64,000 nucleotides of DNA from NCBI RefSeq assembly GCF_032884065.1, contig NC_088880.1:35218008-35282007 (forward strand), in the 5' to 3' direction. The notes beneath the pieces are model-generated. The model saw only the letters and a list, made by a program, of their open reading frames with translations. It had not been told where the DNA came from and made no database searches. A program made the translations under genes and the position numbers. The number at the start of each line of letters is the position of its first letter. Within the stretch, counting starts at the first letter, position 1. Source of the DNA: Artemia franciscana (Eukaryota; Arthropoda; Branchiopoda; Anostraca; Artemiidae). Positions 1 to 60,837 of the stretch are shown here, piece by piece.

Positions 1-236
1 TTATTTCGTATATGAAAGGGGCTGCTTCCTCATCAACGCCCCGCTCTTTACGCTAAAGTTTTTTACTGTTTTAAAAAGCAGAGTTAATAGAAAGAGTCAA
101 ACTTTAGCGTAAAGAGCGAGGCATTGATGAGGAAGCAGCCCCTTTCATATACGAAGTAATTTCTTTTCGTTTTAAGTTTTGATGTCGCTCCTTACTTTCA
201 GCTAAAAAAAAACTTTTTTTTTTATTTAATTAGTAA
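1..236. mobile_element. Foldback element, copy 1 (left end cut by window)
   Basis: Positions 1-60 and about 100-160 are near-perfect reverse complements around a loop of about 40 bases. Both arms carry the family core CTCTTTACGCTAAAG, and a right tail ending in T-runs and ATTTAATTA reaches about 236. The same stem recurs at 2.1, 10.0, 10.3, 13.0 and 15.0 kb. No protein is encoded, so it is a non-autonomous foldback or MITE-like element. The loop is the same type as the copy at 10.3 kb. Confidence 0.8.
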
Positions 237-244
237 AAGAAGTC

Positions 245-1340
245 AAAGCTGGAGCTACTTACTCATATGTTCGTTACTACGAAATATTCGCCTATTAATT
301 GACATATGGATTTAAAAAGTATTCAAACCCCTCCTCCTCTCAGATAACAGAACTATTTCAAAGGCAATCTAAAAAGTTTGTTTAAGGACTCTTCGGTTCG
401 GCGGTGTTAGTTTGTGTAGTTTTTACACGTTGTCAAGGTAGAGATAGCAGAATAGCGTAGCTTTCACGGAGACGATTTCTACATAAAGTTGAAATAGCGT
501 GGTGAATTGAGACACCCGAAACAGTGAATCGGAAGTTCTTATTAAGATAGCATTATAAACAATGTTTTATTTTTAAACAAATGCATATTTCAACACATGC
601 ATATTTCGACAATGCATATCTCAGCGTTTGTTTGCAAACGCCGCCAAAAGTTTTTGAAAAATAACATGTTTTCTTTATACTATTTTCAAATGCAAGGTTA
701 TCTTAAGTTACTGACTGTGACATTCAACGATATTCCTAAAAGCGGATATTTGCAACAAAATATTTTTACATACTTAAAAAAAACATTTAGAGGCTGTTAT
801 TTCAAATGTAGGACATTAATTTAATATGTATCGCTATAAAAAGTATTTAAATGCCTCTCTCTGTCAAATAATGAACTATTCCAAATCAGTGGCATTGGCT
901 GGGGGAGAGATAGGGGGCATATGCCTCCTATATCTTCCCCTGTAGATTTCGAAAAGTGCCTTTTTGGCGTATTTGCAACGAAAAAGCCTTACTCTTAATT
1001 TATTGGAAAATTAAAAAAACAACAAGATTACCCCTTCTAGATTTTGAAAAATACGCCCCTTCTAAGTTTTCGTGAAGTGACGCCGCTGTTTTGAAAGCAA
1101 ACAACAAATTTTAATTCATGTGTTTCTTTCCCGTCTGTCGATGTCAGCTTTTGTAGATTTCATGAGTAGTCAAGGTTAAGATAGCTGAACTCTAAAACAG
1201 TGTAGCCTTCACGGAGGTGATTTTACATAAAGCTGAAATAGCGTGGCGAATTAACAATCCAAAATAGTACTGTGGAACTCTTTTGTAAGATTGCATGTTA
1301 AAAATTGCATATTTTCAAGCAAAAACCTATTTTTAATTGC
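245..1340. repeat. Diverged tandem duplication, period about 735 bp
   Basis: The stretch around 300-560 (AAAAGTATT...CTTTCACGGAGACGATTT...GAAATAGCGTGG) is repeated around 830-1310 with many substitutions; the CTTCACGGA motif falls at about 471 and 1206. No credible reading frame is present in either copy. Confidence 0.55.
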
Positions 1341-1980
1341 TTTGAAAATACAGTTTAGAATGTTGTAAAAATTGTATGTTTTTTAATAAAACTTTCAAGT
1401 GAATCAAAATGTGGATGTTGACCACCCTCGAGATTTAACTGATAAATAAAATATCCAAAACATTTGTATTAAAGTAAAAAGTGACTTAACTTTAAAAAGG
1501 GGTTGTCAGCCCTTCTTATTCTTAAGGATGGGCAAACCCTTATTTAGTGGTGAATATGCTTGACATTTATCTAAAACAAAGAGGGGTAAAATAAATGTAG
1601 TATTTATGAATCAAACCTATTCAATCTTTATTTATCCAATTTTTAGTATATCTTAGCACCCTTATCGAGTGGTAGACCTCCTTCAACAAACGGTGTTTTC
1701 TTGGTTTTTAATTAAATATATTTTACATTTAAGCACAACCTTTAGTTTTACTTAATTTGTGCGGTGCTACATCTGAATTCCAAAGAGATACATTTAAAAA
1801 GAGATATCAGTGCCTCTTAAGCCTCAGCTGTAGAAAAAAATTACAATGCCCTATCTATAAGGATAACGTTGACAAATTCAGATTTTCACTTTATACTAAA
1901 TTATATTAAATGAAACAGTTAATATGAACATGTTAATGTTAATAGTTAATATAAAATTATGAACAGTCACAAAATAGAAT
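1341..1980. other. Unassigned AT-rich stretch
   Basis: No reading frame, RNA gene or clear repeat was recognised here. Confidence 0.5.
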
Positions 1981-2072
1981 AAAGGAGTGACTAGGAGTTA
2001 TAGCAATCAAAGCTCTAGAAAAAGGTATTTCAATGGCAATTCATGCATCAAAGAATCGGCTTTTTATTGACA
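1981..2072 (+). repeat. Fragment of dispersed family B
   Basis: Contains the family motif CATCAAAGAATCGGCTTTTTA, also seen near 7,720 and 13,810. It directly abuts a foldback element, as in other copies. Confidence 0.45.
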
Positions 2073-2392
2073 AAATAAAAAAAAAAATTCCACTGAAAGT
2101 AAAGAGCATCATCACAACATGAAACACACAGAAACTACTAAATAAATTCTTCCCTCCTCAATACCTTGCTCTTTATGCTGAAGTTTGACTATTTGTCCCA
2201 ATTTCTTAAGAGCAACTCCTCAAACGCGTCTGATTAGAATAATAAGCTTTTTTAAAAGTTCTAAGAGGAACTTTACCATAAAGAGGGAGTACTGAGGAGG
2301 AAGCAACCCTCCTAATATAAGTATTCGTTTTAAGCTTTGTTGTTGCTCTTTACTTTCAGTTGAAGAAGCTTGTTTTTTATATTTAATTTCTG
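2073..2392. mobile_element. Foldback element, copy 2 (diverged)
   Basis: The left tail (ACTGAAAGTAAAGAGCATCA), left arm 2143-2190, right arm 2268-2312 and right tail to about 2392 line up with the other family members. The core has drifted to CTCTTTATGCTGAAGT. The loop is of the long type shared with the copies at 13.0 and 15.0 kb. Confidence 0.65.
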
Positions 2393-2815
2393 ATTGTTTT
2401 AAATAGTGTCGGGAAATCTGGCTTCCCATACATGGAAAATTCCTTCCCCCTACGGAAAGTTCCTCCATGAAAAGTTCCTCCTACGTAAAATACCCCCCGC
2501 TAGGAATTTTTTCCCCAGACAATTCCATTTTAGCTGAAAATTTTCCCCGGAAAATTTCTCGCCGACGATGCCTAGTGAAAAATTTTTCTTGCTACACTTT
2601 AATTTGAAAAAGACTTTAATTTCTTATTGCTTTTAAAATCATACTTGAAATCCCCTCCTCTGTGGAAAAGTTTTTCACATATACCCTCTCCCCTCCGTCC
2701 AGCTCTCTAGTAGAAGTTGCTCCTGCATAATATTCCCTCTAGAGAATTTATTCCTTGGTCACTTGAATGAGCTGAATTTGATTGTGTAACTTTTATTAAA
2801 ATTCCTTGACTTTTA
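2393..2815. other. Relic repeat rich in GGAAAATTCC-like runs
   Basis: Degenerate alternation of AAATTCC and CCCC runs resembling the flanks of the foldback copies at 13 and 14.4-14.9 kb. Probably an eroded dispersed repeat; no gene is seen. Confidence 0.35.
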
Positions 2816-3020
2816 TGGCTGCTCCCTCCCCCTTTTAGAAAATCAGGCAAATTTTCTCAGGATCGTAGCTTTTGATGGGCATCATTAAATCTAATCTGTT
2901 TGATATATTTGAAATCAAAATAAATGGTCTATTCTTTATTGGTAACACTAAACTTAATGAATTTTATATATTACGAATCAGCCTAATAAACCGATACTCT
3001 ATTGATATAAAGATTCCATT
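2816..3020 (-). repeat. Dispersed family B, minus orientation
   Basis: Contains the reverse complement of the family B core (GCAAATTTTCTCAGG followed by a GATGGGCAT block), also found near 5,450 (-), 7,790 (+) and 13,880 (+). Confidence 0.55.
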
Positions 3021-3594
3021 GTTAAGAGTTTAGGTTAATATTAAGCCTCTTCGCTCCTCACTTAAAATCGTTGTTACGAAGTGTTAGACTCCAAAGATTC
3101 AAAATTCAGTATGTTTAAAAAGGGTTTAAACATGGGTTAAACAAGGGTTAAACCTCCCGTAAAATAACCCCCCCCCCCGTGGAAAATACTTAATATTTTT
3201 TTGGAAAATTGGCATCAAGAGATTTTCTGTCCTGAAAAAACAATCTAGATAGGTCATGAAATTGAGAAAATTTATTAAAAGCCTTAATTTCGGAATAGAA
3301 AATTCATACAAGTGATATCATATTCATGAGCACAAATTAAGAGCATGAATACATGAATACATAGTTAAGTATAAAATAAGAAGTGTAATGAGATTATTTG
3401 CAAAAAATGTTTTCAGCAGTTTCATAATACCCAGAGGACAAAACTTAAATTAACAATTGCTTAAAATGAACAAAGTGTAATGTAAATCCACAATGGGTGA
3501 ATATGAACAATATTCACCCAGGTCTCAGACGACCTGAGAAATCTAAATTTTCAACGGTCGAAAATTTACAACCTAGGCCGTCAAATGTGACCAG
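3021..3594. other. Unassigned AT-rich stretch
   Basis: Nothing recognisable except a C10 run near 3,168. Open frames here have no family features. Confidence 0.45.
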
Positions 3595-4640
3595 ACCAAT
3601 CTGAGCCACAAAGGTAGAGGTAATTGAAAAAAATCCTGAAGTAATGATAAACGAACATGAAGAAACAAAGAAATTTGTGGACCAAAAATAAGTGGCTGCG
3701 AAAAATAGAACGAGCCATAAATGAAAGTGAAGAACAAAGAAATATACAGTTACAAGACATAAGAAAACGATGATCAGGACGAGTCAAAAATGAAAGTGAA
3801 TAACAAAGAAGGATGTGATTAGAAGATATGTGACAGCAAGAACAAAGGAATAGGTGGTTAGAAAGATAAGTGGCAGCGAACAAGCGCAAGAACCAGAACG
3901 TGTCAAAAATATAAAGTGAAGAACAAAGAATTTTGCGGAGAATGTATCATAAACGAAATCGAAGAACAAAGAATTGTGATGTTAGAAGACAAGCAACAGC
4001 GAGATTCAGAATGAGTCAAAAATTAAAGCGAAGAAGGAAACAAATAGACCTAAAAAACCTAGAAAGTGTCAAAAAGAATCAGAACATGTCAAAAATGTAA
4101 AGTGAAGAACAAAGAATTTTGCGGAGAACATATAATAAATGAAATCGAAGAACAAAGAATTATGATGCTAGAAGACAAGCAACAGCGAGATTCAGAAGCG
4201 GAGAAGGAAAAAAATAAACCTAAAAAACCTGAAAAGATACCGTAAAATGCGCAACTGTTAATTACAAGTCATTAGGACCATCCAATGTTGTGTGTATTTA
4301 CTGTGGAGCCTTTGGTAGTTGGCTTTTTGAAGAGCATCACATACACTCCACGAAATTCTACGAATAAATTTGAAATTCAAACTCATGTTACGCTTTAGCT
4401 TCATTCAACGTAAGCGATGTTCGAACCATCAATAGTCGTAATGCTTTCAGCTTCGAAGTAGCTGGACGAATTTATCACAAAATCATTATAATGGTACATC
4501 CATTATAAGCCCCTGAAGGGAATTTTGAACCTTTATGTGGCCAAAAATTCTTGTTTGACCCCAACGGAGCTGTTGAAGAACGCACAGCACATCTTTAAAA
4601 TTATGGGATATCTTGTAACCTAATGGATTTCTTAGAAAAA
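3595..4640 (+). pseudogene. Degraded Helitron Rep/helicase N-terminal region
   Basis: Remnant of the N-terminal part of a Helitron replication protein, normally a rolling-circle Rep fused to a Pif1-like helicase. From 3,700 a repeated acidic/basic motif reads NESEEQRN..LQDIRKR, with stops, and is present several times, as is usual at Helitron N-termini. Next comes a frame reading LGPSNVVCIYCGAFGSW (about 4,270-4,320), resembling the Cys-containing segment. After a frame change it reads NSCYALASFNVSD and FSFEVAGRIYHKI (about 4,385-4,480), resembling the Helitron-like N domain. Two near-identical sub-blocks (3,899-4,036 and 4,085-4,205) are an internal duplication. Many stops and frame changes make it non-functional. 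No Rep HUH motif or helicase follows, because the copy is cut by the (TA)n/SINE region. Family assignment is from motif recall, not a search. Confidence 0.62.
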
Positions 4641-4675
4641 AAATATTGCGAGACAGAAATAACCAAAGGTTGGCT

Positions 4676-4732
4676 GAAAATAGGAGAAGTGATAGGAGAA
4701 GTGATAGGAGAAGAGAAGAATAGGAGAAGCTT
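4676..4732 (+). repeat. Short minisatellite (GATAGGAGAAGT)n
   Basis: Three to four imperfect 12-mer copies of GATAGGAGAAGT. It lies between the Helitron remnant and the (TA)n tract. Confidence 0.7.
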
Positions 4733-4779
4733 CACTGGGACAACAGTCTCTGTTAGAAGACAGTTGCTAATGAGAATTG

Positions 4780-5090
<311 letters not shown>

Positions 5091-5224
5091 CGCTGAATCA
5101 AATGGCTATCTCAAAATTTTTATCAGATGTCTTTTGAGAAAAAAGCGTAGTGACAAGAGGACTATTTGCAATCCAATCCATTTGATTACTTAAAAGAGAT
5201 CAAGAAATTTGGGTATCCGTTTAG

Positions 5225-5560
5225 GTGAGCCCTCTCCTAATCTTCTTGGTCTATTGGTTTGATACGATCACCCTTGAAAAAAAAAGACAAACAAATAGAC
5301 AAATAAACACACATACATGATCTTTCTTGCGGCCAAATACAAAAGTCTACATTTTTGTGGGCAGGAGTTTGAAACCTCTACAAAAGGGCTCTCTGATTTC
5401 TTGAATCTGATGGTAATGATCGACTGACTTTTCGTGGTCGTTCCCCCCATTTTAGAAGGTTTGGCAAATTTTCTGAGGCTCTTAGTTTTGATCGGCATAA
5501 GTAAACTCGATGAATTCTAAATATTTGGAATCAATATAAAAAGCCAATTCTTTTGATATA
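5225..5560 (-). repeat. Dispersed families A and B, minus orientation
   Basis: The reverse complement of 5,250-5,350 matches the family A segment near 9,450-9,520 (AGATCA-GATG-TGTGTTTATTT, then a T-run and GGGTGATCGTAT). The block at 5,430-5,560 matches family B (GCAAATTTTCTGAGG). The two families lie in the same relative order as on the plus strand further right. Confidence 0.5.
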
Positions 5561-6095
5561 GTTAAATATAGATGTTTTTAGGCAATTGGATCTACTACAA
5601 AAAATCTACTTCAATTCTTTATTTTTTTCTGGCTTTATTTAATTTACATTACCGTAGCATACAAAAAGACCGTTTAGCTAGCTTTTCGATGGCCCTTGGT
5701 TGGCTTTGTCTAGATTGTAAGTAGATCTTGCTCCACTTTGGCAGCAGTTCAATCTACAAATGGGTTCCGTCATATATAGTAAATAGATCACGCTATTTTA
5801 ACGGATATGAAAAAAGCAGGAAAATTGCCTTTACAATTTTCAAACTATTTTTAACTTATTTTTCCATCTGAAGAATACAAAGCGAATTTCAAAAATGTAA
5901 CTTACGAGATCAATAAATCTGAATCTCAGCTACTGAATGAAAAAAAAAAATTATCTAGCGTTGAAATATTAAAACCGCCGAGATATTAAAACTGAAATAT
6001 TAAAACTACCGAAAAATAACGTACCAAAACTTGCATAGGGAACATGTACCTTAACTATATTATAAATTATTTAAACTCTTCTTCTTATATTTCAG
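5561..6095. other. Upstream flank of the Shaker exon (presumed intron)
   Basis: AT-rich, including a small repeated ATATTAAAACYG motif at 5,965-6,015. It ends with a pyrimidine-rich tract and TTCAG at 6,091-6,095, a good splice acceptor. No other exon of the channel was recognised between 1 and 6,095. Confidence 0.5.
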
Positions 6096-6274
6096 GTCAT
6101 GCGATGAAAAAAAGGGCGGACTCATTGACCGAGTCGTGCTCGGATCTGCTTGACCTCGAAGAAGGTTTGTTTGGACTTCATACAACGCTGCATCCACATA
6201 ACAAAATGAAGACAAATTGTACACAAAAAATGAACAACAATGTGAACGCAGTTACTGTGGAGACAGACGTGTGA
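6096..6274 (+). CDS. Sh: C-terminal exon of a Shaker-type (Kv1) voltage-gated K+ channel
   Basis: Last coding exon of a Kv1/Shaker channel alpha subunit, a plasma-membrane protein that forms tetrameric delayed-rectifier or A-type potassium channels. The exon opens after a TTCAG acceptor (6,091-6,095) with two bases completing a split codon, then reads HAMKKRADSLTESCSDLLDL, EEGLFG and on to the stop at 6,272-6,274. The block KK..SLTES.SDLLDLEEG closely matches the cytoplasmic tail of insect Shaker just after the S6 region. The end reads NNNVNAVTVETDV. ETDV is a class I PDZ ligand; Shaker and mammalian Kv1.4 end the same way and use it to bind Dlg/PSD-95 scaffolds. The frame is also open upstream of the acceptor, but that part (MYLNYIIN...) looks intronic. 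No S1-S6 or TVGYGD pore exon was recognised in the window, so the gene body should lie to the left. The exon is more GC-rich than its surroundings. Identity rests on motif recall. Confidence 0.78.
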
Positions 6275-7660
6275 TTCAATGATATGGTTTTCCAAATGCT
6301 GCTTTTAAGAGGTAAACCTGCTTGAATGTATACAGGCCGTTATGCTGATTTGGCTATTATGAGTAAGCCCATGTTGATGTATACGTGAATTTAATATAAA
6401 ATTGGCGATTATCGGTAAACCTACCTTGATGTACATCCAGCTCTATTGTCAAATCAGCCATTATAGGTCAATTGACACTGATGGACACACTACCGTATTG
6501 ATTGTATGGGTCGTAGCAGACCATACTCAAAGTGCCCTCCAACTTGAAGTTTTTACCTTATTTTCAACATCGTGTTTTGCTTAGTTGTTCAATAAGTAGG
6601 AAAACCTTTCCTTGCTGCCTCAGAGCCTAAATATTAATCTAGTGTAGGCCTACTGTTTGAGAATACCTTTGAAAAGTGGAATTTGAAAATATTCTTTCCT
6701 AATTGAAGGAATCATAAAAAAAAATTAAAAATTGCGAAAACTTCCAAATCTTTATATTTATTCGAATATTACCGCAGGATTAATCTAGACTAATGTGGAG
6801 AATTTCATTGTTAGAGGGTAAAAAGATGTTGCTTATAATATGATTAAGAAAACTATGCATGAATTAAAATATTTGAGTAATCTTACTTCCAGGAGAGTTA
6901 GATAAAATATGCGTTTACGACTGCAAAATGTCAAAGTTAACAATTATTAACCACCCATTATACATACTCAGATATACTGAATCTGAATATTCAATCTTTA
7001 GGTACTAATATACTGACACAAATTATTAGATCCAATTTGAAAGAGAATCATGTATCCAGAAAGTTGATGATTTTTTTTTTTTTTTTACTGTTTCTGAATC
7101 TAAACACGAGCTCCTTGTTGAATCCTGACGAGCTGCCGCCACTTATCATTAAGGATGATTACCTATACGTGGAAGAAGAAATCTAAAGAACATTAGGAAG
7201 AGGCCAAGAGAGAGAGATAAGGCCCTCACTCTTGGAAAACAAAAGAAATTAAGCTTTTTTCGATTCGAGACTTAAACTCTCGTGTATTTTCTCAATTTTA
7301 TCTTCAGATTTACATTTATTTTCAAGCCATTCTCAATGAAGATATTATTACCTATTAAAATGTCTAATGTGTTTAGTTTGCTGCCATTACACATGTTGCA
7401 TCAAACATTCTCCCACCTGTAATCTGCCTTGTTTCACTGACGAAAGTTTCTTAGCTTCGTTCTTGCTCTATTAGCCTATTATTTGAAACTGCAATAAATA
7501 TAGATTCGGTCCAGAAACAAAACCAAAAGAATGGGAGGCATAAGAGATGGGCTTAGGTCGCTCAGCGGAACCGTGTTACAATAAAGTTTCTTGTATACTA
7601 CTATGAAGCAAAAGCTTTTATTCAAAACAGACTTTAAATTGAAAGTAGATTTAAGTTGAA
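6275..7660. other. Downstream flank of the Shaker exon (3' UTR and beyond)
   Basis: No coding signal. Probably holds the Shaker 3' UTR, but its end cannot be fixed: AATAAA occurs near 7,493 and other weak signals exist. A T14 run lies near 7,072. The stretch from 6,300 to 6,480 contains loosely repeated TTGATGTATA..GG phrases. Confidence 0.4.
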
Positions 7661-7932
7661 TCCAAGTGCTTATACATCAAACAGTTCGTGGAAACGGAAT
7701 TTTGATATCAATAGTTCAATCAAAAGAATCTCATTTTAATGCTGATTTTAAAAATATAATTTCCATCAAGTTTAATCTTACCTATCAAAAGTTACGAGCC
7801 TGAGAAAATTTGCCTTATTTTAGAAAATTGGGGGACACACCCCCTAAAAATAATAAAATCTTAACAAAAATAACATCATCAGGTTCAGTGTAATAGAAAA
7901 CCCTACTGTAGAAGTTTCAAGCTCTTATCTAC
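7661..7932 (+). repeat. Dispersed family B, plus orientation
   Basis: ATCAAACAGTTCGTGG, CAAAAGAATC, CAAAAGTTACGAGCCTGAG and TAGAAGTTTCAAGCTC blocks match partial copies near 11,450-11,700 and 13,710-13,970. The copy ends exactly where the long inverted repeat at 7,933 begins, suggesting an insertion boundary. Confidence 0.6.
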
Positions 7933-8403
7933 AATAATATGAAAAAAACTTCGTTTTCTTAAAGAGTTAAAGAGGCTGCGTCCCAAAGTCGAACCTTAAA
8001 ACGTACAGGAATTAGAAGAGGCAGTTGGGGGGCTGCCGCCCCCCAAACCCCCAGCTTTTAAAGACTCTTTTGTACAGGTTTTTTGTTTTTTTGCTAACCC
8101 CCCGCTCTTGGCTTCGGAAAGGCCCTCTTTTAATTAACAAAAAATTGAAATGAATGAATAATGGAATAACTTCGAAAAATGTTAAACACAAGAGGACAGG
8201 AGAACCATTGCGCCGAAACTAGTAATTAGTAACAATGAAGTCCCTCCACAAAAAAAACCTGTACAAAAGAGTCTTTAAAAGCTGGGGGTTTGGGGGGCGG
8301 CAGCCCCCCAACTGCCTCTCCTAATTCCTGTACGTTTTAAGGTTCGACTTTGGGACGCAGCCTCTTTAACTCTTTAAGAAAACGAAGTTTTTTTCATATT
8401 ATT
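7933..8403. mobile_element. Long inverted repeat, about 160-bp arms (foldback transposon candidate)
   Basis: The left arm (about 7,933-8,092) and right arm (about 8,242-8,403) are reverse complements with about one visible mismatch, around a spacer of about 150 bp. Each arm contains CTTTAAAAGCTGGGGGTTTG and a nested palindrome of GGGGGGC-GCC-CCCCC type. The near identity implies recent formation or gene conversion. No transposase is present. A related half-arm lies at 8,450-8,520. Confidence 0.75.
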
Positions 8404-8449
8404 TCTGTACGTTTTTCTACAATCCATGGTGGATGTAATTTAATAATTC

Positions 8450-8520
8450 CTGTACTCCTCGTACAGGAATTAGGAGAGGAACTTGGGTGGCTGCCGCCCC
8501 CCCTGCTTTTAAATCATTGT
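8450..8520 (-). repeat. Partial extra arm of the 7.9-kb inverted repeat
   Basis: GTACAGGAATTAGGAGAGG, then a GGCTGCCGCCCCCC block and GCTTTTAAA, resembles the inner part of the inverted-repeat arms but is diverged and truncated. Confidence 0.55.
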
Positions 8521-8652
8521 ATAAAATAGAAAATAAATAGATAGAATGACCGAAATGTTTCTTTTGCTCATAAGAAGCTAATATTCTGTTATCTCTCAAA
8601 TGATAAGCTGTCCAGGTGTTATCAAAATTTTTTTGATGTTGTGAAAAAAAAC

Positions 8653-8724
8653 TGCCCGTAAGGGACTTGAACCCTTGACCCGAGGATTAAAAGTCTCACG
8701 CTCTACCAACTGAGCTAATAACTT
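8653..8724 (-). pseudogene. tRNA-Lys(TTT)-like pseudogene
   Basis: On the minus strand there is a perfect Pol III A box (TAGCTCAGTTGG), an anticodon loop CTTTTAA (TTT, Lys), a perfect B box (GGGTTCAAGTCCC) and a T-run terminator just downstream. The 3' acceptor strand ACGGGCA has no partner: the 5' strand reads close to AAGTTAT instead of TGCCCGT, and the anticodon stem has two mismatches. It is therefore a decayed tRNA gene or a tRNA-derived SINE head rather than a working tRNA. Confidence 0.65.
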
Positions 8725-8814
8725 GCATGTGTGTTAATATAACTTCTCAATAGATTTAAAAATTTCAAATTAACATGTGCTCTTATGGAGAGAAATCCGT
8801 TAATTAAATAGCTA

Positions 8815-9260
8815 ATGGGTGGTTTCTGGAAAACAGGGAAGGAGTTATCAGATCGAGCTGAAATTTCGCAGATAAGCTCCTGGGCCATAGGGGACCTTAA
8901 CTTGTGAATTTCAGCCCGATCGGACAACGTTAAAAGGGGTGGGGGGGTTGGAGGGTCGAAACTTTCGGGGGGTTACGATTTTCCTACGAAACTTTCCAGG
9001 AAAATTACTCGGAGAATTCCGCATCGAATGAGTCTTCGTACACCCAGATCTGATGTCGGATGTGACCTGTAGGCGTCTAGGAAAAAAAGTAAATGAATTT
9101 TAAGTGGCTATGCGTGGTTTCTGGAAAACAGGGAAGGAGTTATCGGATCAAGCTGAAATTTCGCGGATAAGCTCCTGGGCCCTAGGGGACCTTAACTTGT
9201 GAATTTCAGCCTGATCGGACAACGTTAAAGGGGGGCTTGGGTTGACAGGTCGAAACTTTC
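8815..9260. repeat. Pair of direct repeats, about 150 bp, 295 bp apart
   Basis: GGTTTCTGGAAAACAGGGAA through GATCGGACAACGTTAAA occurs at about 8,818-8,940 and again at 9,113-9,235 with about 90-95% visible identity. The minus strand is partly open in both but without recognisable protein features. The pair leads into family A. Confidence 0.8.
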
Positions 9261-9982
9261 GGCCATATTTTCCCCATGAAGGAAAAGTTGGAGGGGGATG
9301 AAATTTTGCAGGTTTCTTAGTTGGAGCTCGGGCTACGAAATGGATCCCTCTCCATCCGTCTGCGACCACTGGAACCGAAGATCGCTTAACATTGTCGTGT
9401 GTCGCCTCTTTATAGAGGCACGAGTGTGCCTCCTTGAAAATGTGAAAGTTTGTATTTATTGCCAAAAGACAGATCACGGATGTGTGTTTATTTTTATTTT
9501 AATTTTTTCAGGGGTGATCGTATTGATCCAGTGGTCCTAGAATGTCACGAGAGGACTCATTCTAACAGAAATTAAAAGTTCTAGTGCCCTTTTTAAGTGA
9601 CCAAGAAATTGGAGGGCACCTAGGCCCCCTCCCACGCACATTTTTTCCAAGGTTACCGGATCAAAATTTTGAGATAGCCATTCTGTTCAACTTAGTCGAA
9701 AACTTAATAACTATGTCTTTTGGGACGACTTAATCCCCCACAGTCCTCGGGGGAGGGGCTGCAAGTTACGAACTTTAACCATTGTTTACATATAGTGATG
9801 GTTATTATGAACTCTACAGATGTTTTCAGGGGGACTTTTTCGCATTGGGGTGAGGGGGAATTGGGGGAGGGGATTACGTGGGAGGATCTATCCATGGATG
9901 AATTTATCATGAGGGAAGAGAATTTCCTTGAAGGGTGTGCAGGATTTTCTAGCGTTATTTAAAAAAACAATAAGAAAATAAA
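9261..9982 (+). repeat. Dispersed family A, fullest copy
   Basis: Contains GACAGATCACGGATGTGTG, GGGTGATCGTATTGAT, AATTGGAGGGCACCTAGG, ATCAAAATTTTGAGATAG and CCCCCACAGTCCTCGGGGGA in order; the same order is seen in eroded form at 12.7-13.0 and 14.0-14.9 kb. Each copy ends in a foldback element. Open frames on both strands (about 80-109 codons) look incidental. Confidence 0.65.
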
Positions 9983-15300: not shown

Positions 15301-15588
15301 TTTGCAAATAAAAAACTGACATAAAATTGCAAAAACTATCATCCTATCAATAAGAGTTTGACATAGTTATGAATGACATAATCCAATCATGGCAATCGAA
15401 AAAATTTTTATTGGAAGCAGAACGAAATCGAAAATATTTGGTAATTAGATAGTGACGTTTAAACTAAATAAAAAAACTTATTTGTCACCTTCGATTTTCC
15501 ATGGCAGTATATCGTTTGCTTATCTTATTTAACTTTGACTTCTGCATCAGGCTGCACAATTCTTACATCATCTTCCTTTTTCTTCTAG

Positions 15589-19308: not shown

Positions 19309-19620
19309 AGTGAGGACGCGATTTCGAATCCCAGTTTACCCAATTATTCATTTTGGGACGGGGGTCAGTGGTGTGACCTTGTAAGCTTAGCCAGAGTCGA
19401 CCCAGCTCAAAATGGGTACCTGGAGAAATCTGGGGAAGTTAAACAGGAAGGGTGTGCGAAAGCACAGGATGGTTGGACCCCAGCCTCCCATTGCACTTCC
19501 TGGCCGAAGGGCCAAGAAACAGAGATCAGCACTACTGGTACGGACTGTAAAGTCTAATATCCTTTATGGATTACGGACTTTATCGGTACGGACTGTAAAT
19601 ATCCTTTACCTTTTTTTATA
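19309..19620 (+). mobile_element. SINE, 5'-truncated tRNA-derived
   Basis: Begins inside a tRNA-like head with a B-box-like GATTTCGAATCCCAG. It then has a GC-richer body including AGCTCAAAATGGGTACCTGG and GCACTTCCTGGCCGAAGG, typical of metazoan SINE central domains in style. The end carries two copies of GGTACGGACTGTAAA around a TATCCTTTA phrase. No A box lies upstream, so the head is truncated. Superfamily is not assigned. Confidence 0.55.
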
Positions 19621-23405: not shown

Positions 23406-24077
23406 AATATAATGTGAGTACAATTGAGAATCTAATTCCAATCTAATGTGCTTCGAATAGCCGTAGCGGATGTGATGAAACCCCATTACCTCGCTTACGA
23501 ATTTTAATTGTGTTTTTACATCTTATTCATTACGGTGCCTTAAATTGATTTTGCCATATCGATCTAACATTAGGTAGCAGCCGATGTTAAATCTTTTCCT
23601 AAGTTTGCTTTGTTATTATACATCTTGTTTGTTTTATTTATTTGTGTACTCGATATTTAGTTTCGTATCTATGTCATTGAAGCTGTCTCTTTATCTACCT
23701 ATCCTTCTTGCATACTCCTCCCCTAAGCCTGTGGAATTTTTATAGTTAGAAGTTTTTCCTATAGTAGATTTGTTTTTTCAGTAAACATAGAATAAATTTC
23801 GCTTGTTATTTTGTACATTAAAATGTAAATATTATAAATACAGGAACATTGTCCTTTGTTACAAAAAATAAACTGTGTCCTAAATTCTCAATGACACTAA
23901 GTAGCAACAATATTTTATTACGGTAAGTCAAATAACTGAATTCGGTTGTTCTTAGTCAAACTAGAATTAATTCACCTTGATCTCAACTTGAAGGAACTTT
24001 CTCTAGTGGTTTAGTCAATATTCTAATATTTTCCTTGCTCTCAATTTTTTAAATTTTACTTACAGTTACACTTACAG
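23403..24077. other. Unassigned stretch upstream of a LINE
   Basis: No coding frame. TTACAGTTACACTTACAGTTAC at about 24,059-24,080 is a small repeat at the 5' truncation point of the next element. Confidence 0.45.
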
Positions 24078-26440
24078 TTACAGGAGCAAATAGACAGGGT
24101 ACCAGGTAGAAATATGGTGTTTTTGCTACGAGATTTTAATGCCCAGGTTGGTAGAAATAGGGATAGATGGTATCCTAGCCTAGGTAAATTTGGTGTAGGA
24201 AAAGAAAACAGTAATGGCAATAGGCTTTTGCAATTTTTTAGGTATAACAACCTAGTTATAACCAATACGGTGTTTGGTCACAAAATGGCCCATATGTTGA
24301 CATGGTATTCACGTGATGGTAAGACAGCAAACCTTATTGATTATGTTATTGTAAACAGAAGACTAGCAGGATCAATACAAGATACTAGGGTGTATAGATG
24401 TGCCGTTTTTTATGTTAAAAGTAAAGATCACCATTTAGTATTGCCTAAGGTTAATTTAAAGCTGAAATTTCGGAAGGGTAACTCCCTCCCGGAAAGTTAT
24501 GATGTTGGTAGACTTCAGGATGAAAATTTGAGAAAAAAATTCCGGGGACAGTTGAGTGCTAAACTTGAGAGTTTAAAATTTGACAATGTGGAAGATGGAT
24601 GGAATAATTTCAGAAAAACAATTTGTGAAGTTGCTGATGGTGTCCTAGGGAAGAGTGCTAAGACTGCAACTAGGAATATTTGTGGAAAAGCTTTAGGTTT
24701 AGTAGAGAGTAGAAGGGGTTTGTATAAGAATTATCTGAGTGATAGGTCGTATGAAAACAAAAGGAATGTAAAGAAATTGAGAAAGCATTAAAATATGAAC
24801 TAAAGAGATGTGAAGTGGAGGCCATGGATAAAATTGCTGAGGATCGCGGCTAGACGGCATAATAGTAAAATATTATACTGGCATGTTAATAAATTGAAAG
24901 GGAGTACCCAATCTGGACTAGTCCCAGTTAAAGATAGAAATGGGGCCACAATTAGTGATAAGGAAAAAGTTAAAGAAAGATGGGTGGAACATTTTGAAAA
25001 TGTGCTAGACCGAGATACAGTTGCAGGAAAAGATATAGATGAAAATGAAAAAGTTTGTGATACCTTGGATGTGAAGGAAGATTTGTTTAGTGAGGAAGAA
25101 TTAGCGACAGTACTAAAAGGATTAAAAAATAATAAGGCCCCAGGTGCTGATAGTATGATTAAAGAGTTTCTTAAATATGGTGGCTCTGAGGTTAGAAATA
25201 AGCTACTAAAGATTATGAACATGATTTTTGAAAAAGGAAAAATACTCAATGATTTTAAGAAAACCTTAATTAAACCACTGTATAAGAAAGGTGACGAGAG
25301 TGAGTGTCGTAATTATCGTGGCATTAGTCTGGTCTCTGTAGGTAGCAAATTACTGAGTAATATGATACTTTTTAGACTGAAAGATGCTGTAGACAAAGTT
25401 TTAAGGGAAGAACAATGCGGTTTTAGCAAAGGTAGAGGATGTGTCAACCATGTTTTCACTCTTAGGTTGATAATTGAGAAGTCGTTTCGTTGTCAAACAC
25501 CTTTGGTCCTCAGTTTTATCATTATGAGCAAGCTCTCGATTCTGTTGATCGAAGAGCGTTAACAAAGGTCTTATCGTTATAGGCAATTGGAGACCATGGA
25601 ATCAAATGGGGAGGAAGAACGCTCTTGGACTTAGATTATGCTGATGATTTAAGCATATTAGATGAAAGTGTGAGCAAAATGAATGAATTTTTAGAGGTTT
25701 TACGAGTTCAGGGTGCTAAAATAGGCTTGAAAATTAATATTAAGAAGACTAAGTCACTAAGGCTAGGAATAAATGAAGATGAACAGGTGACATTAGGTAA
25801 CGAAAAGATTGATCAGGTTAGGAGCTTCAGTTACCTTGGTAGTATTATTAGTAAGGATGGTGGGAGCAGTGAAGATGTTAAAAGTAGAATAGCTAAGGCT
25901 CAGGGTGTTTTTTCACAGTTAAAAAAAATTTGGAAGAAAAGAAAGATAAGTCTACAAACCAAGATTAGAATATTGGAAGCTACAGTGATGACAGTGGTCA
26001 AATATGGCTCTGAAGCATGGGCACTCCGAAAAGCATATGAAAATTTACTAGATGTTTTCCAGAGAAATTGCCTACGGATTGTTCTGGGTACCCGGCTGAC
26101 TGACCGTATTTCAAACAGTAGGTTGTACGAAAAGTGTGGTTCAATCCTGCTTTCTGGGGCTATGATGAAAGAATGGTTAAGATGGCTAGGCCACGTTCTA
26201 CAGAAGAAAGATGACAGATTACCGAAGATTGTCCTGTTTGGCCAACCGTCTGGGGCTACACGGAAAGTAGGTCGTCCTCGTCTGGGTTGGGAGGATGTCA
26301 TAAATAAAGATTTAAAGGAAATGGGAACTTCTTGGGAGGGTGTAAAGAGGGAGGCTTTAAATAGATTAGGTTGGAGGAGGAGCGTGCGTAGCTGTGTTGG
26401 CCTCAGGCGGCTTGGTGCTGGAGTGAGTTATTAGTAGTAG
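24078..26440 (+). pseudogene. Non-LTR retrotransposon copy 1 (endonuclease-RT), 5' truncated and broken
   Basis: LINE of the type often annotated as 'craniofacial development protein 2-like/endonuclease-reverse transcriptase'. It encodes an APE-type endonuclease and a reverse transcriptase for target-primed integration. The endonuclease part (24,078-24,791) begins inside the domain (RDFNAQVG) and keeps LIDYVIVNRR and DHHLV. The RT part (24,810-25,562) has WVEHFENVL, KNNKAPGAD, NYRGISLVSVGSKL and EEQCGFSKGRG. The palm motif LDYADD (YADD codons 25,637-25,648) and the C-terminus (SYLGSII, LRWLGHVL, RKVGRPRLGWED) are in 25,625-26,434. Frame breaks lie near 24,775, 24,845 and 25,520. Relative to copy 2, 183 bp between RT block A and YADD are deleted at 25,581. 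It ends in TAGTAGTAGTATTAGTAGTA, a trinucleotide tail. The clade (RTE-like suspected from the short-repeat tail) needs phylogeny. Confidence 0.88.
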
Positions 26441-26474
26441 TAGTATTAGTAGTAATTTTTTTAATCATTCAGGT

Positions 26475-28109: not shown

Positions 28110-28424
28110 TATATATTTTTTTCTTTTTTAATCTTAACCTTAGGGTTCCTCCGCCCCTCCCCGGACGTACAACCACCTCACCTAAATATACTAAAAATCT
28201 AAACTTTATCTAATTTAATTTATCTTTCTTTTTTTATCTTTCACTTATTGACCTTTAACTAAATATTTATTTAAGTTATTTTTGAAAGATCTGAGGGAGC
28301 TCCTACATCTCTGATATTTTCGAAACATGCTCCACACTTTAGCACATACTACATCCAGGGAAAAATCTGAGCGTACTGTTGTGAGTTCGTCTCACTTGAA
28401 GGCCAAAGGCAGAGCGCACAGAAC
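28110..28424 (-). pseudogene. LINE C-terminal fragment, minus strand
   Basis: On the minus strand a frame reads KVWSMFRKYQRCRSS then LRSFKNNLNKYLVKGQ and stops near 28,245. The form '...WN.LP..VR...S...FKNNL.KYL' is the common end of CR1/Jockey-like RT proteins. Upstream frames are broken. The segment is cut at about 28,425 where LINE copy 2 begins. Confidence 0.42.
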
Positions 28425-29614
<1,190 letters not shown>

Positions 29615-36770: not shown

Positions 36771-36779
36771 TTTAGAAAG

Positions 36780-38185
36780 CAAGGTTAAGCGGCAATAGAA
36801 GAAAGTCAAAAAGTATGGTAACCGTCAAATCCAGAAAGGTCAGTACCCATATGAGGGAGGCTTTCGTACCTGTTTGGTTCCAAAAGTAATGAAATATGCT
36901 AAGATGGACAAAATGTAATGAAAAAAAAATTCCGAAAGAAAAAAGAATTTAACAGAAAAACATATTTAAACACTTGTTTTTGAAAAACAAAATTTGAAAC
37001 ACTAGTCTTAAAAAAGAACAAAGAAGACTAAAATTTAAAAAGCAAAGAAAAATCAGGGTTTAAAATTATAGGAAATAACTAGTTAAAACTTAAAAACGGA
37101 AAAAGTCTTCTAATAAGAATAGAAATGATAAACATAACGAATGAATTAAAGAAATTCGAAGACTATGGTCTGCTTCAAATCCTAGAAGGGTCAGCGCTGT
37201 GAAACGGAAGCTTATCAGGTTCATTTGGTCCAAAAAATAACATTTTTTGCAAGGTTAAGCGGCAATAGAAGAAAGTCAAAAACTATGGTAACCGTCAAAT
37301 CCAGAAAGGTCAGTGCCCCTATGAGGGAGACTTATCGTACCTGTTTGGTTCCAAAAGTAATGAAATATGCTAAGATGAACAAAATGTAATGAAAAAAATT
37401 TCCGAAAGAAAAAAGAATTTAACAGAAAAAAATATTTAAACACTTGTTTTTGAAAAACAAAATTTGAAACACTAGTCTTAAGAAAAGAACAAAGAAGACT
37501 AAAATTTAAAAAGCAAAGAAAAATCAGGGTTTAAAATTATAGGAAATAACTAGTTAAAACTTAAAAACGGAAAAAGTCTTCTAATAAGAATAGAAATGAT
37601 AAACATAACGAATGAATTAAAGAAATTCATAGACTATGGTCTGCTTCAAATCCTAGAAGGGTCAGCACCGTGAAACGGAAGCTTATCAGGTTCATTTGGT
37701 CCAAAAAATAACATTTTTTGCAAGGTTAAGCGGCAATAGAAGAAAGTCAAAAACTATGGTAACCGTCAAATCCAGAAAGGTCAGTGCCCCTATGAGGGAG
37801 GCTTATCGTACCTGTTTGGTTCCAAAAGTAATGAAATATGCTAAGCTGAACAAAATGTAACGAAAAAAATTTCCGAAAGAAAAAAGAATTTAACAGAAAA
37901 ACATATTTAAACACTTGTTTTTGAAAAACAAAATTTGAAACACTAGTCTTAAAAAAAGAACAAAGAAGACTAAAATTTAAAAAGCAAAGAAAAATCAGGG
38001 TTTAAAATTATAGGAAATAACTAGTTAAAACTTAAAAACGGAAAAAGTCTTCTAATAAGAATAGAAATGATAAACATAACGAATGAATTAAAGAAATTCG
38101 AAGACTATGGTCTGCTTCAAATCCTAGAAGGGTCAGCGCCGTGAAACGGAAGCTTATCAGGTTCATTTGGTCCAAAAAATAACAT
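36780..38185. repeat. Tandem array of three 470-bp units
   Basis: AAGGTTAAGCGGCAATAGAA starts units at 36,781, 37,251 and 37,722 (periods 470 and 471). The units are nearly identical, differing by isolated substitutions and 1-base indels. They carry GGTAACCGTCAAATCCAGAA, TGAGGGAG and CACTTGTTTTTGAAAAACAA blocks. No reading frame is shared. Confidence 0.9.
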
Positions 38186-52179: not shown

Positions 52180-55100
52180 AAATAAGAGCTCTGAGTCACA
52201 AGGTCCTTCTAAATATCAAAATTCATTAAGATCCGAATACCCAGTCTAAGTTAAAAATACCTCAATTTTTCTAATATTCCCTCTCCCTTCAGCCCCCCAG
52301 ATGGTCGAATCAGGGAAAACGGCTTTAACAAATCAATTTGTTCAGCTCCCTGAAACACCTAACAATTTTCATCGTCCTAGCACATCAAGAAGCACAAACT
52401 CGCCAAAGCACAGAACTCCACCACCTAACTCCCCCAAAGTGAGAGGATCTGGTCCGGATACGTCAATCACGTATCTACGGCTTTTATAAACGTTTTCCAA
52501 GATTTTCGATTCCCCCGTCCAACTCCCCCAATGCCAACATATTTGACTTTAATTCTAAATAAGAATTCAGAGACATGAGTTCCTTTTAAATATCAAGTCT
52601 CATTAAGATCCGGTCAACCGTTCTTAAGTTAAAAATACCTCAATTTTTCTAATTTTTCCAAATTAACAACCCCAAGCTCCCCCAAAGAGAACGACTCCGT
52701 ACCAATTATGTCAATCTCGTATCTATAACTTGTGCTTATTCTATTCATCAAGTTTCATCCCGATCTCTCCAATCTAAGATTCCGATTTCCGATTCAAGAT
52801 TTCCAATTTCCAAGATTTCTGTTTCTCCCCTCCAACCCTCTATGTCCCCGGACCCGATTCGAATTGAAAATGGAGCATCTTAGACATAAGATTCTTCTGT
52901 ATATCAAGTTTCACTAACATCCGATCAACCATTCGTAAGATACCTCCATTTTCACGTTTTCCAAGAATTCTGGTTTCCCCTCCCAATTCGCTTTAGTGTC
53001 ACCAGATCCAGTCGGGATTTAAAAAGGGAGTTTTAAAGCACAAGATCCTTCTAGATATCAGATTTCATTAAGATTCGATTACCCGTTCGTAGGTTACAAA
53101 TACCTCATTTTTTCTAATTATTCCGCATTGCTCCCCCCCCCCCCAACTCCACCAAAGAGAGTGGATCCGGTCCGGTTATGTCAGTCACCTATGTTGGACT
53201 TGTGTTTATTTGTTTCATCAAGTTTCATCTTGATCTCCGCTTTAAACGTTTTTCAAGATTTCAGGTCCCCCCCCCTAGTGACACTGGATCCGGTCGGGAT
53301 TTCAAATAAGAGATCTGAGCTATGAGGTCCTTCTAAATATGAAATTTCATTAAGACACGATCATTCTTTCGTAAGTTAAAAATACCTCATTTTTTCTAAT
53401 TTTTCTAATTAACCCTCCCCCCCCCCCAACTCCCCCAAAGAGAGCTGATCCATTCCAGTTATTTCAATATCGTATTAAGGACTTGTATTTATTTTTCCCA
53501 CCTAGTATCATCCTGATCCCTCCACTCTAAGCGTTTTCAAAGATTTTTGGTTCCCCCCCCCCCAGCGTCCTCTTCACCGGATCCAGCAGGATTTAAAATA
53601 CGAGCTCTGTGACATGATATCCTTCCAAACCTCAAATTTCATTAAGATCCGGTCATTCCTTCGTAAGTTAAAAATGGCTCATTTTTCTATTTTTTCAGCA
53701 TTAACCCTCCCCCCAAACTAATTAACACTGATTAACACTCCCCCTAACTCCCCCAAATAGAGCGGATCCTTTCTGGCTATGTCAATCACGTATCTAGGAC
53801 TTATGATATTTTTCCCATCAAGTTTCATCCCGATCCCTCAACTATAAGCGTTTTCCGAGATTTTAGGTGCTCCCAAACTCCCCCCAATGTCACCATATCC
53901 AGTTGGAATTTAAAGTAAGAGCTCTGAGACACGATATTCTTCCAAATTTTAAATTTTATTAAGATCCGATTACTCTTTCGTAAGTTAAAAATACCTCATT
54001 TTTTCTAATTTTTCTGAAATAACCCTCCCCTTCAACTCCCCCAAAGAGAGTGGATCCGTTCCGGTTATGTCAATCACATCTTTAGGACTTGTGTTTATTT
54101 TTCCCACCAATTTGCATCCTGATCCCTCTACTCTAAGCGTTTTCAAAGATTTTAGGTTCCACCCCCCCCCACCTACTTCCCCTTCACCGGATCCGGTCAG
54201 GATTTAAAATAAGAGCTCTGAGACATGATAGCCCTCCAAACCTGAAATTTCATTAAGATCCGATCATTCCTTCGTAAGTTAAAAATGGCTCATTTTTCTA
54301 ATTTTTCAGCATTAACACTCCCCCCAAACTCCCCCGAAGAGAGCGGATCCGTTCCGGTTACGTCAATCACGTATCTAGGACTTATGATTATTTTCTCATC
54401 AAGTTTAATCCAGATCCCTCTACTCTAAGCGTTTTCCGAGATTTTAGGTCCCCCCAAACTCCCCCCCCCAATGTCACCAGATCCGGTCAGAATTTAAAGC
54501 AAGAACTCTGAAACACAATATCCTTCCAAATTTTAAATTTTATTATGATCCGATCACTCCTTCGTAAGTTAAAAATACCTCATTTTTTCTAATGTTTCAG
54601 AAATAACTCTCCCCTCCAACTCCCCCAAAGAGAGTGGATCCGTCCCAGTTATGTCAATCACGTATCTAGGACTTATGATGCTTATTTTTCCATGAAGTTT
54701 CATCCCGATCCCTCCACTCTAAGTGTTTTTCAAGATTTTAGGTTCTCCCCTCAGTTCCCCCCAATGTCACCAGATCCAGTCAGGATATAAAATAAGAACT
54801 CAGAGACATGATATTCTTCCAAACTTCGAATTTCATTAAAAATCTGATCACTCCTTCGTAAGTTAAAAATACCTCATTTTTTTCTAATTTTCTAGAATTA
54901 ACCCTCCCTCCCCCCAACTCCCCTAAACAGAGAAGATCGTTCCGGTTATGTCAATCACGTATCTAGGACTTCTGCTTATTTTTTCCACCAAGTTTCATCT
55001 CGATGCCTCCACTCTAAGCGGATTCCAAGATTTTAGGTTCCCCCCTCCAACGCCTCTCAATGTCACCAGATCTGGTCGGGATTCAAAGTAAGAGCTCTGA

Positions 55101-55250
55101 GACATGATATTCTTCCAAATATCAAATTTTGTTAAGATCCCATCACCTGTTCGTAAGTTAAAAATACTTCATTTTTTATATTTTTCAAAATTAGCCGGCC
55201 CCTCACTCCCCCTCCTAATCGTCAAATCGGGAAAAAACTATTTCTAGTTT
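52180..55250 (+). repeat. Tandem array, about ten units of 285-320 bp
   Basis: CGTAAGTTAAAAATACCTCA-like heads at about 52,624, 53,089, 53,371, 53,663, 53,980, 54,273, 54,563, 54,858 and 55,153, mostly 290-317 bp apart. Each has a C-run plus CAACTCCCCCAAAGAGAG, TATGTCAATCACGTATCTAG, AAGTTTCATCCCGATCCCTC and ATGTCACCAGATCCGGTC blocks. Homopolymer C-runs vary in length. No frame is conserved across units. Confidence 0.85.
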
Positions 55251-57110: not shown

Positions 57111-57380
57111 AGTATAGGTTTCGTTCCTCAAAAGCTTACCTCCTAGTAAAAAATTCGAATAATGCCATTTCAAACAAACACAAGCACGGCCGAAATTCCT
57201 TAGCTCGCAGACACAGACAAATGTTAACCCGGATACGGCGGTTTCCGAAATATAATTGTAAGAGTCATGAAAATGAGCATGTATTCGATATTTAGTCTCA
57301 CTAGTGACAGAGAAAAGTAGAGAAGTAGAAAAGTAGAAATTGAAGCTGAAGTGGCACCAGCATCTGTAGAATCACAGAGC

Positions 57381-58004
57381 ATGGCTTCACCAGCCAAGAA
57401 GGAAAAGAAAGCAAAGGCTCCAAAACCAGCTAAGGCTGCAAAACCTAAAGGGGATAAAAAGGTCAAGGCACCAGCAAACCACCCAAAATACGTGGAAATG
57501 ATTATCAAATCCATTGCTGACCTGAAAGAGCGTGGGAGATCTAGCCGTCAGGCCATTCTCAAATACATAATGGCCAATTTCCAGGTTGGTAATGATGCCA
57601 AAGTTGTGAATATGCATCTTAAGCAAGCTTTGAAGCGTTGCCTTGCAAATGGAATTGTTATAAATCCCAAAGGTACTGGCGTAACTGGTTCTTTCAAGCT
57701 TGCAAAGCCTGTCAAGGCCGAAAATTCCAAGGCTATAGAGCCTGCCAAGCCCAAAGCTAAGAAAACTTCAGTCAAGAAAACAACCAAACCTACTGCAGTG
57801 AAAAAGTCAACTTCAGCCAAAAAGGCTACCAAGTCAATGGCTGGTAGCAAGAAGCCTGTAAAGGTTTTCAAGAAACCCACTGTTGCCAAAAAATCAGTAG
57901 CAGCAAAGAAATCGACACCCAAGAAGAGGCCGTCAGTCAAGAAAGCTCCCGCCAAGAAAGTGGCATCTAAAAAGTCAGTAGCTAAGAAACCAGCTAAAAA
58001 GTAA
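57381..58004 (+). CDS. H1: Linker histone H1
   Basis: Complete intronless gene for a 207-residue linker histone, which binds nucleosome dyads and linker DNA and compacts chromatin in the nucleus. A Lys/Ala/Pro-rich N-terminal tail (residues 1-32, starting MASPAKKEKKAKAPK) is followed by the winged-helix globular domain at about 33-108. That domain includes HPKYVEMIIKSIADLKERGR, SSRQAILKYI, VNMHLKQALKRCLANG and the GTGVTGSFKL wing. The basic C-terminal tail of about 100 residues is made of K/A/P/S repeats with a TPKK motif. The frame is open upstream to 57,321 but contains no earlier ATG, so 57,381 is the start. Length and architecture are normal for animal H1. A canonical histone stem-loop 33 bp after the stop marks it as a replication-dependent gene whose mRNA would not be polyadenylated. 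TATAAT at 57,251 is a weak TATA candidate. No core histone gene lies in the window. Confidence 0.97.
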   Translation: MASPAKKEKKAKAPKPAKAAKPKGDKKVKAPANHPKYVEMIIKSIADLKERGRSSRQAILKYIMANFQVGNDAKVVNMHLKQALKRCLANGIVINPKGTGVTGSFKLAKPVKAENSKAIEPAKPKAKKTSVKKTTKPTAVKKSTSAKKATKSMAGSKKPVKVFKKPTVAKKSVAAKKSTPKKRPSVKKAPAKKVASKKSVAKKPAKK

Positions 58005-58036
58005 TGTGTGCAATAAGTTATCCTGCAGTATCAAAC

Positions 58037-58052
58037 AGCCCTTTTCAGGGCT
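58037..58052 (+). terminator. Histone mRNA 3' stem-loop
   Basis: AGCCCT-TTTC-AGGGCT, a 6-bp stem and 4-base loop, followed by ACCAAA. This matches the animal replication-dependent histone stem-loop bound by SLBP, and cleavage is expected just after the ACCA. Confidence 0.97.
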
Positions 58053-58070
58053 ACCAAATCAAATGCTCGA

Positions 58071-58090
58071 AACTTTCTGTTCAGAAAGTT
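58071..58090 (+). promoter_or_regulatory. Perfect inverted repeat at the histone downstream element position
   Basis: AACTTTCTG-TT-CAGAAAGTT, a perfect 9-bp stem, starts 19 nt after the histone stem-loop. CAGAAAG in the right arm resembles the purine-rich downstream element that pairs with U7 snRNA. That it forms a hairpin is what the sequence shows; a role in processing is inference. Confidence 0.6.
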
Positions 58091-59133: not shown

Positions 59134-59327
59134 GTAAATCATGAGAGTTGAAGCTTCATTCCAACTAGGCTTATAAATAGTAGTACTATTTTAAAGGTTA
59201 GGTTAGTTTAGGTAAAATAACACAAATTTAAATATTTTTGCTAAATTTCTTTTTTCAAATCTTTGACAAAAAAGAAAAGGTTTGATACAAAAAATTTAGA
59301 CTCTAAAAATGACTGTTTTTGTTGGTA
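59134..59327 (+). repeat. 194-bp TTAGG-containing block, copy 2
   Basis: Near-identical to 58,527-58,720, with the telomere-like motif mutated to TTAGGTTAGTTTAGG. It lies inside the satellite. Confidence 0.85.
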
Positions 59328-59880
59328 GACTTTTGCTATAGATACTATTGAAAGACCAAGGCAATTTGAACTGTAATTGGAGTTGGGCTCTACAACATAT
59401 GAAGAGGATTTACGTCAAAAGTCTTTGATTAAAGTCAGTTGTTGTCGCGGCGCTCTTGAAGGAGCAAGTACTTTGGTGTTATTGATGCTACTGATAGACG
59501 AAGGTAGTTGGAACTCTAAATTGAAGTTGAAGCCGAAAACATTTGAAGGGACTTTGAACATAGACCAATCAAAGACTAACTTAAAAGTTAGTCTTTGATC
59601 TAAGACAGTTGCTTAGGCGGCGCTATTGAAGGAACAAATAGACTTTTGCTATAGATGCTATTGAAAGACCAAGGCAATTTGAACTGCACCATGGAGTTGG
59701 GCCCGACAACACATGAAGAGGATTTACGTCAAAAGTCTTTGATTAAAGTCAGTTGTTGTCGCGACGCTCTTGAAGGAGCAAGTACATTGGTGTTACTGAC
59801 GCTACTGATAGACGAAGGTAGTTGGAACTGCAAATTGAAGTTGAGGCCGAAAACATTTGAAGGGACTTTGAAAATACACC

Positions 59881-59914
59881 AATCAAAGACTAACTTTAAA
59901 GTTAGTCTTTGATT
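59881..59914. repeat. Perfect 34-bp palindrome in the satellite (example)
   Basis: AATCAAAGACTAACTTT followed immediately by its exact reverse complement. Other units carry the same palindrome or one with an AA centre (arms of 15 bp or more). The unit at 62,985-63,014 has one arm mutated. Confidence 0.97.
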
Positions 59915-60643
59915 AAAGACAGTTGCTTAGGCGGCGCTATTGAAGGAACAAGTAGACTTTTGCTATAGATGCTATTGAAAGACCAAGGCAATTTGAACTG
60001 TACCGTGGAGTTGGGCCCGACAACATATGAAGATAATTTACGTCAAAAGTCTTTGATTAAAGTCAGATGTTGTCGCGGCGCTCTTGAAGGAGCAAGTACA
60101 TTGGTGTACTTGCTATTGGTAGACTTTTGCTATAGATGCTATTGAAAGACCAAGGCAATTTGAACTGTATCATGGAGTTGGGCCCGATAACATAAAAAAA
60201 GGATTTACGTCAAAAGTCTTTGATTAAAGTCAGTTGTTGTCGCGGCGCTCTTGAAGGAGCAAGTACATTGGTGTACTTGCTATTGGTAGACTTTTGCTAT
60301 AAGTGCTATTGAAAGACCAAAGCAATTTGAACTGTACCATGGAGTTGGGTTCGACAACATATGAAGAGGATTTACGTCAAAAGTCTTTGATTAAAGTCAG
60401 TTGTTGTCGCGGCATTCTTGAAGGAGCAAGTACATTGGTGTTACTGATGCTACTGATAGACAAAGGTAGTTGGAACTGTAAATTGAAGTTGAGGCCGAAA
60501 ATATTTGAAGGGACTTTGAACATAGACCAATCAAAGACTAACTTAAAAGTTAGTCTTTGATCTAAGACAGTTGCTTAAACGGCGCTATTGAAGGAACAAG
60601 TACACTTTTGCTATAGATGCTATTGCTAAATTGTAATGTAATT

Positions 60644-60837
60644 GTAAATCATGAGAGTTGAAGCTTCATTCCAACTAGGCTTATAAATAGTAGTACTATT
60701 TTAAAGGTTAGGTTAGTTTAGGTAAAATAACACAAATTTAAATATTTTTGCTAAATTTCTTTTTTCAAATCTTTGACAAAAAAGAAAAGGTTTGATACAA
60801 AAAATTTAGACTCTAAAAATGACTGTTTTTGTTGGTA
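60644..60837 (+). repeat. 194-bp TTAGG-containing block, copy 3
   Basis: Duplicate of the block at 59,134 produced by the 1,510-bp duplication. Confidence 0.88.

Follow-up and report, generated by a model that had tools for sequence, protein, structure and literature searches.

Introduction

Close to the left end of a 64,000-nucleotide stretch of Artemia franciscana DNA (the window, analyzed here in full) lies a short open frame on the + strand, positions 6096-6274, whose translation resembles the cytoplasmic tail of a Shaker channel. The question that this locus raises is whether the frame is indeed the end of a potassium channel gene and, if so, where the remainder of that gene is to be sought. 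An earlier reading made from the letters alone (the sequence-only reading) had taken it for an isolated C-terminal exon of Shaker/Kv1 type. In what follows we show that 6096-6274 is very probably the last coding exon, at the 3' end, of a voltage-gated potassium channel gene of the animal Shaker/Kv1 type, an assignment based on the splice acceptor, the open frame and the sequence matches described below. The exon is an ordinary Shaker-type tail, real but unsurprising.

Splice Acceptor and Open Frame

The exon spans 179 bases and encodes HAMKKRADSLTESCSDLLDLEEG...NNNVNAVTVETDV. The first two bases (6096-6097) belong to a split codon, and 58 codons (6098-6271) and a TGA stop (6272-6274) follow, with the full translation from 6098 reading HAMKKRADSLTESCSDLLDLEEGLFGLHTTLHPHNKMKTNCTQKMNNNVNAVTVETDV before the TGA. 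The sequence-only reading had chosen the right frame, and its count of 59 codons takes in 58 residues and the stop. Bases 6096-6097 are GT and would complete a codon started in the preceding exon. The frame remains open upstream as far as 6020, with a TAA at 6017-6019, and third-position GC is 0.50 in the exon vs 0.32 in the flanking 1000 bases.

As read from the sequence, 6020-6095 (+) is probably the 3' end of the last intron; it carries a polypyrimidine tract and ends in a CAG acceptor at 6093-6095 (...CTCTTCTTCTTATATTTCAG/GTCATGCG, the slash marking the junction). Pyrimidines occupy 14 of the 16 positions between -20 and -5, the acceptor trinucleotide is CAG, and no further AG occurs within the 16 bases that precede the terminal AG. 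When these three features are scored over both strands of the window, 34 of 7260 AG dinucleotides, including the one at 6093-6095, are found to be equally good, which is approximately one per 3.8 kb of strand. An acceptor of this grade at such spacing, together with an exon of just 58 codons, leaves room for a reading in which a chance open frame happens to resemble a Shaker tail, and it is against this reading that the matches in the following two sections have to be weighed.

Two Conserved Blocks in One Frame

In order to score the exon against a known tail we have used that of Drosophila Shaker, confirmed against the end of the chain in PDB 7SIP chain A. The conserved block that follows S6 in Shaker/Kv1 tails, KK..SL.ES.SD..DL..G, is present in the exon as KKRADSLTESCSDLLDLEEG (6107-6166, +). 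Across the six reading frames of the window, the top score of the Drosophila block MKKSSLSESSSDMMDLDDG is 51, at the exon, where its best ungapped placement starts at 6110, and the runner-up site reaches 27. The last 12 residues of the exon score 41 against NNALAVSIETDV, and the next best of the 7929 12-mers that precede a stop in the six frames reaches 18. When the window was simulated 200 times with a first-order Markov model, the maxima were 34 for the conserved block and 32 for the C-terminal block, so that each block in the exon lies above every simulated window. Both fall in one open frame and in the correct order.

The frame closes with ETDV (6260-6271, +; 6260-6274 with the stop), a class I PDZ ligand as in Drosophila Shaker, with the role of the motif taken from PMC9025546 and PMC3519636. 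When all six frames are scanned for E[TS][DE]V or [TS]DV directly before a stop, this site and one other emerge, the other being an SDV at 15451 that has no Shaker context. Acceptor, coordinates and motif had been placed correctly in the sequence-only reading.

A tblastn search of the window with the pore-to-tail region of Drosophila Shaker has the conserved block as its top hit (E 0.008). The C-terminal block is recovered in the same frame at E 2.1, below four chance hits, and by itself this match is not significant.

Comparison with Kv1.2

A phmmer search of the 58 exon residues against 177,635 PDB sequences returned five entries up to E 10, and all five are Kv1.2 or Kv1.2-based, with exon residues 4-58 in an alignment that extends to the chain's final residue. 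The E-values (0.38-0.55) are individually weak, a point in favor of chance; the weight of the result comes from the fact that all matches agree on one protein and one register. Using the register fixed beforehand from this search we compared the exon with Kv1.2 in shuffle tests. Over 55 ungapped residues there are 18 identities, giving z 7.2 with none of 20,000 shuffles as good, and the first 20 residues give z 5.6, again with 0 of 20,000. The linker alone is matched less strongly (z 3.35; 18 of 20,000 shuffles as good), and for the last 8 residues taken by themselves the match is not significant, 1130 of 20,000 shuffles doing as well. The Kv1.2 tail (6EBK, 3LUT, 2A79, 8VCH, 8VC3) is equal in length to that of the exon, 55 residues from KK to the end, and the two share the NCT and VN positions, differing at the terminus where Kv1.2 has LTDV and the exon ETDV.

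Chains of Drosophila Shaker were not returned by phmmer with the 58 residues at E up to 10. The PDB contains 8 distinct sequences of this channel with its full tail, and the long linker gap is likely the reason that they were missed. Pfam assigns no family to the exon at E up to 1; no Pfam model is known to cover Kv1 tails.

With an end-to-end match to Kv1.2 added to two separate blocks, each outscoring all 200 simulated windows and ordered in a single frame, chance similarity is very unlikely as an account of this sequence. The two separately found blocks and a phmmer search that returned only Kv1.2-type chains support the identification as a Shaker/Kv1 tail exon.

Tail Length and the PDZ Ligand

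Drosophila Shaker and the exon both carry MKK..SL.ES.SD..DL..G followed by NN...AV..ETDV before the stop, and what separates them is the linker. From KK to the end there are 139 residues, 35 of them Gln, in the Drosophila channel, whereas the exon has 55 residues and 1 Gln. The remark in the sequence-only reading that the middle of the tail is much shorter than the Gln-rich insect version is therefore true in comparison with Drosophila. We do not, however, retain the short tail as an oddity, because the tail of Kv1.2 is just as long and aligns gap-free across 55 residues. Should the split codon be GGT, the tail would after joining begin G-HAMKK, in parallel with G-QHMKK of Drosophila.

From a comparison of three sequences we put forward, as a tentative suggestion held with rather less than even confidence, that the short tail ending in ETDV represents the ancestral state in bilaterians and that the Gln-rich expansion arose in the insect line, in which case anchoring of the channel would not need a long linker.

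The ETDV motif is common to the exon and to mammalian Kv1.4, and according to PMC9025546 the Kv1.4 motif is a strong ligand of PSD-95, and affinity is likely lowered by the leucine that Kv1.1 and Kv1.2 have in their LTDV. The exon would be spliced behind an S6 exon lying to the left of the window and, once expressed, would supply the cytoplasmic tail of the channel, in which a short variable linker joins the conserved basic/Ser/acidic block to the terminal ETDV. This terminus would then bind PDZ domains of scaffolds of the Dlg/PSD-95 type, and such binding may hold the channel at synapses or axons.

Among the titles and abstract openings listed in literature searches we found none about an arthropod Shaker tail exon or the position of its intron, a search at a level from which no absence is claimed. 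For mammals, PMC3519636 describes 7 of 8 Shaker genes as intronless. A tail exon set behind an intron would point to a protostome gene, plausibly an arthropod one. In a collection of viral contigs there were 24 pattern matches, of which 0 were confirmed by tblastn, a comparison sensitive to close relatives only.

Search for Other Channel Exons

Three query pieces were run by tblastn against both strands of the window, with an E limit of 50 and composition correction switched off: the pore-to-tail region of Drosophila Shaker, a Kv T1 domain, and Shaker S2-S6. They produced 41, 57 and 87 matches, respectively. Among the top six matches per piece and all matches within 1-6095, no credible T1, S2-S6 or pore exon is seen besides the tail exon, in a search whose sensitivity is such that a short diverged exon could escape. 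The best non-tail matches (E 0.69 and 0.71) fall on one site, 19419-19493, and run through a stop codon; the best T1 match among those examined has E 1.5. Pfam searches covered ten frames together with the three + frames of 1-9902, and in the latter no family appeared at E up to 0.5. Signature motifs of the pore, S4, S6 and T1 were also scanned for, and the single match, NEYFF at 43832, lacks context.

Since these searches of the window showed no channel exon besides the tail, the T1 domain, S1-S6 and TVGYGD pore of a Shaker/Kv1 alpha subunit are expected outside it, with the gene body predicted on the left. If the gene does continue in that direction the last intron would exceed 6 kb, consistent with 1-6095 being free of any channel exon that we could find.

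The same result can be read in another way: a duplication may have separated the tail from its channel, or the gene may have two alternative last exons of which this is one, with the tail now used seldom if at all. In favor of this reading, no other channel exon was found in the preceding 6.1 kb or in the rest of the window, and much of the window is repetitive, 37% of it matching another part of the window. Yet the frame, the acceptor and both blocks are intact, and the exon sits in a stretch, 5561-7690, that at E 1e-3 matches no other part of the window. We consider an orphaned or alternative tail unlikely, and prefer the last exon of a Shaker gene. As to the description of the exon as buried in transposons, the window is indeed rich in repeats, but the exon's own stretch is unrepeated there.

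As the last exon, 6096-6274 would mark where a Shaker gene ends, on its 3' side, amid repeat-rich DNA, and so helps to complete the gene model. It adds one further case to those indicating that Kv1 tails can be short yet keep the PDZ ligand, and leaves the general picture unchanged.

The 3' Flank and Other Features of the Window

Immediately downstream, 6275-6560 (+) is probably the start of the 3' UTR. It includes about three degenerate 52-bp units at 6311-6466, for which the self-match over 6275-6560 is 47% at period 52 and next 38% at 104, values computed without a shuffle control; the units have no convincing match elsewhere in the window. Hexamers resembling poly(A) signals occur further on, including those at 6724 (ATTAAA), 6863 (ATTAAA) and 7493 (AATAAA), and are common in AT-rich DNA of this kind.

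A tRNA-like match at 8659-8718 on the - strand (Rfam, 42.1 bits, E 1.5e-5), which ARAGORN does not call, may be a tRNA-derived SINE, although this is a guess. A LINE-type element occupies several frames of 24027-26431 (+), with a second, partial copy at 28315-29485 (+); the two are 96.7% identical between 25581-26446 and 28634-29500. RVT_1 is above the cut-off at 24804-25559 and 28315-28737, as is DUF6451 at 28736-29485, with weaker RVT_1 and DUF6451 matches over 25583-26431 and an endonuclease match below the cut-off (E 0.01) at 24027-24788. Tandem arrays with units of 471, 294 and 314 bases are located at 36779-38185, at 53731-55193, and at 59326-60107 and 60835-63139, respectively.

Finally, a linker histone H1 gene is present at 57321-58001 (+; Pfam Linker_histone, E 9.5e-27). 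Its open frame begins after a TAG and has its first in-frame ATG at 57381, and the residues before this ATG already look H1-like. A match to the histone 3' UTR stem-loop at 58032-58078 starts 27 bases after the H1 stop codon, scoring 28.3 bits, under the Rfam gathering score of 34, with E 7e-6 in a search of 701 bases.
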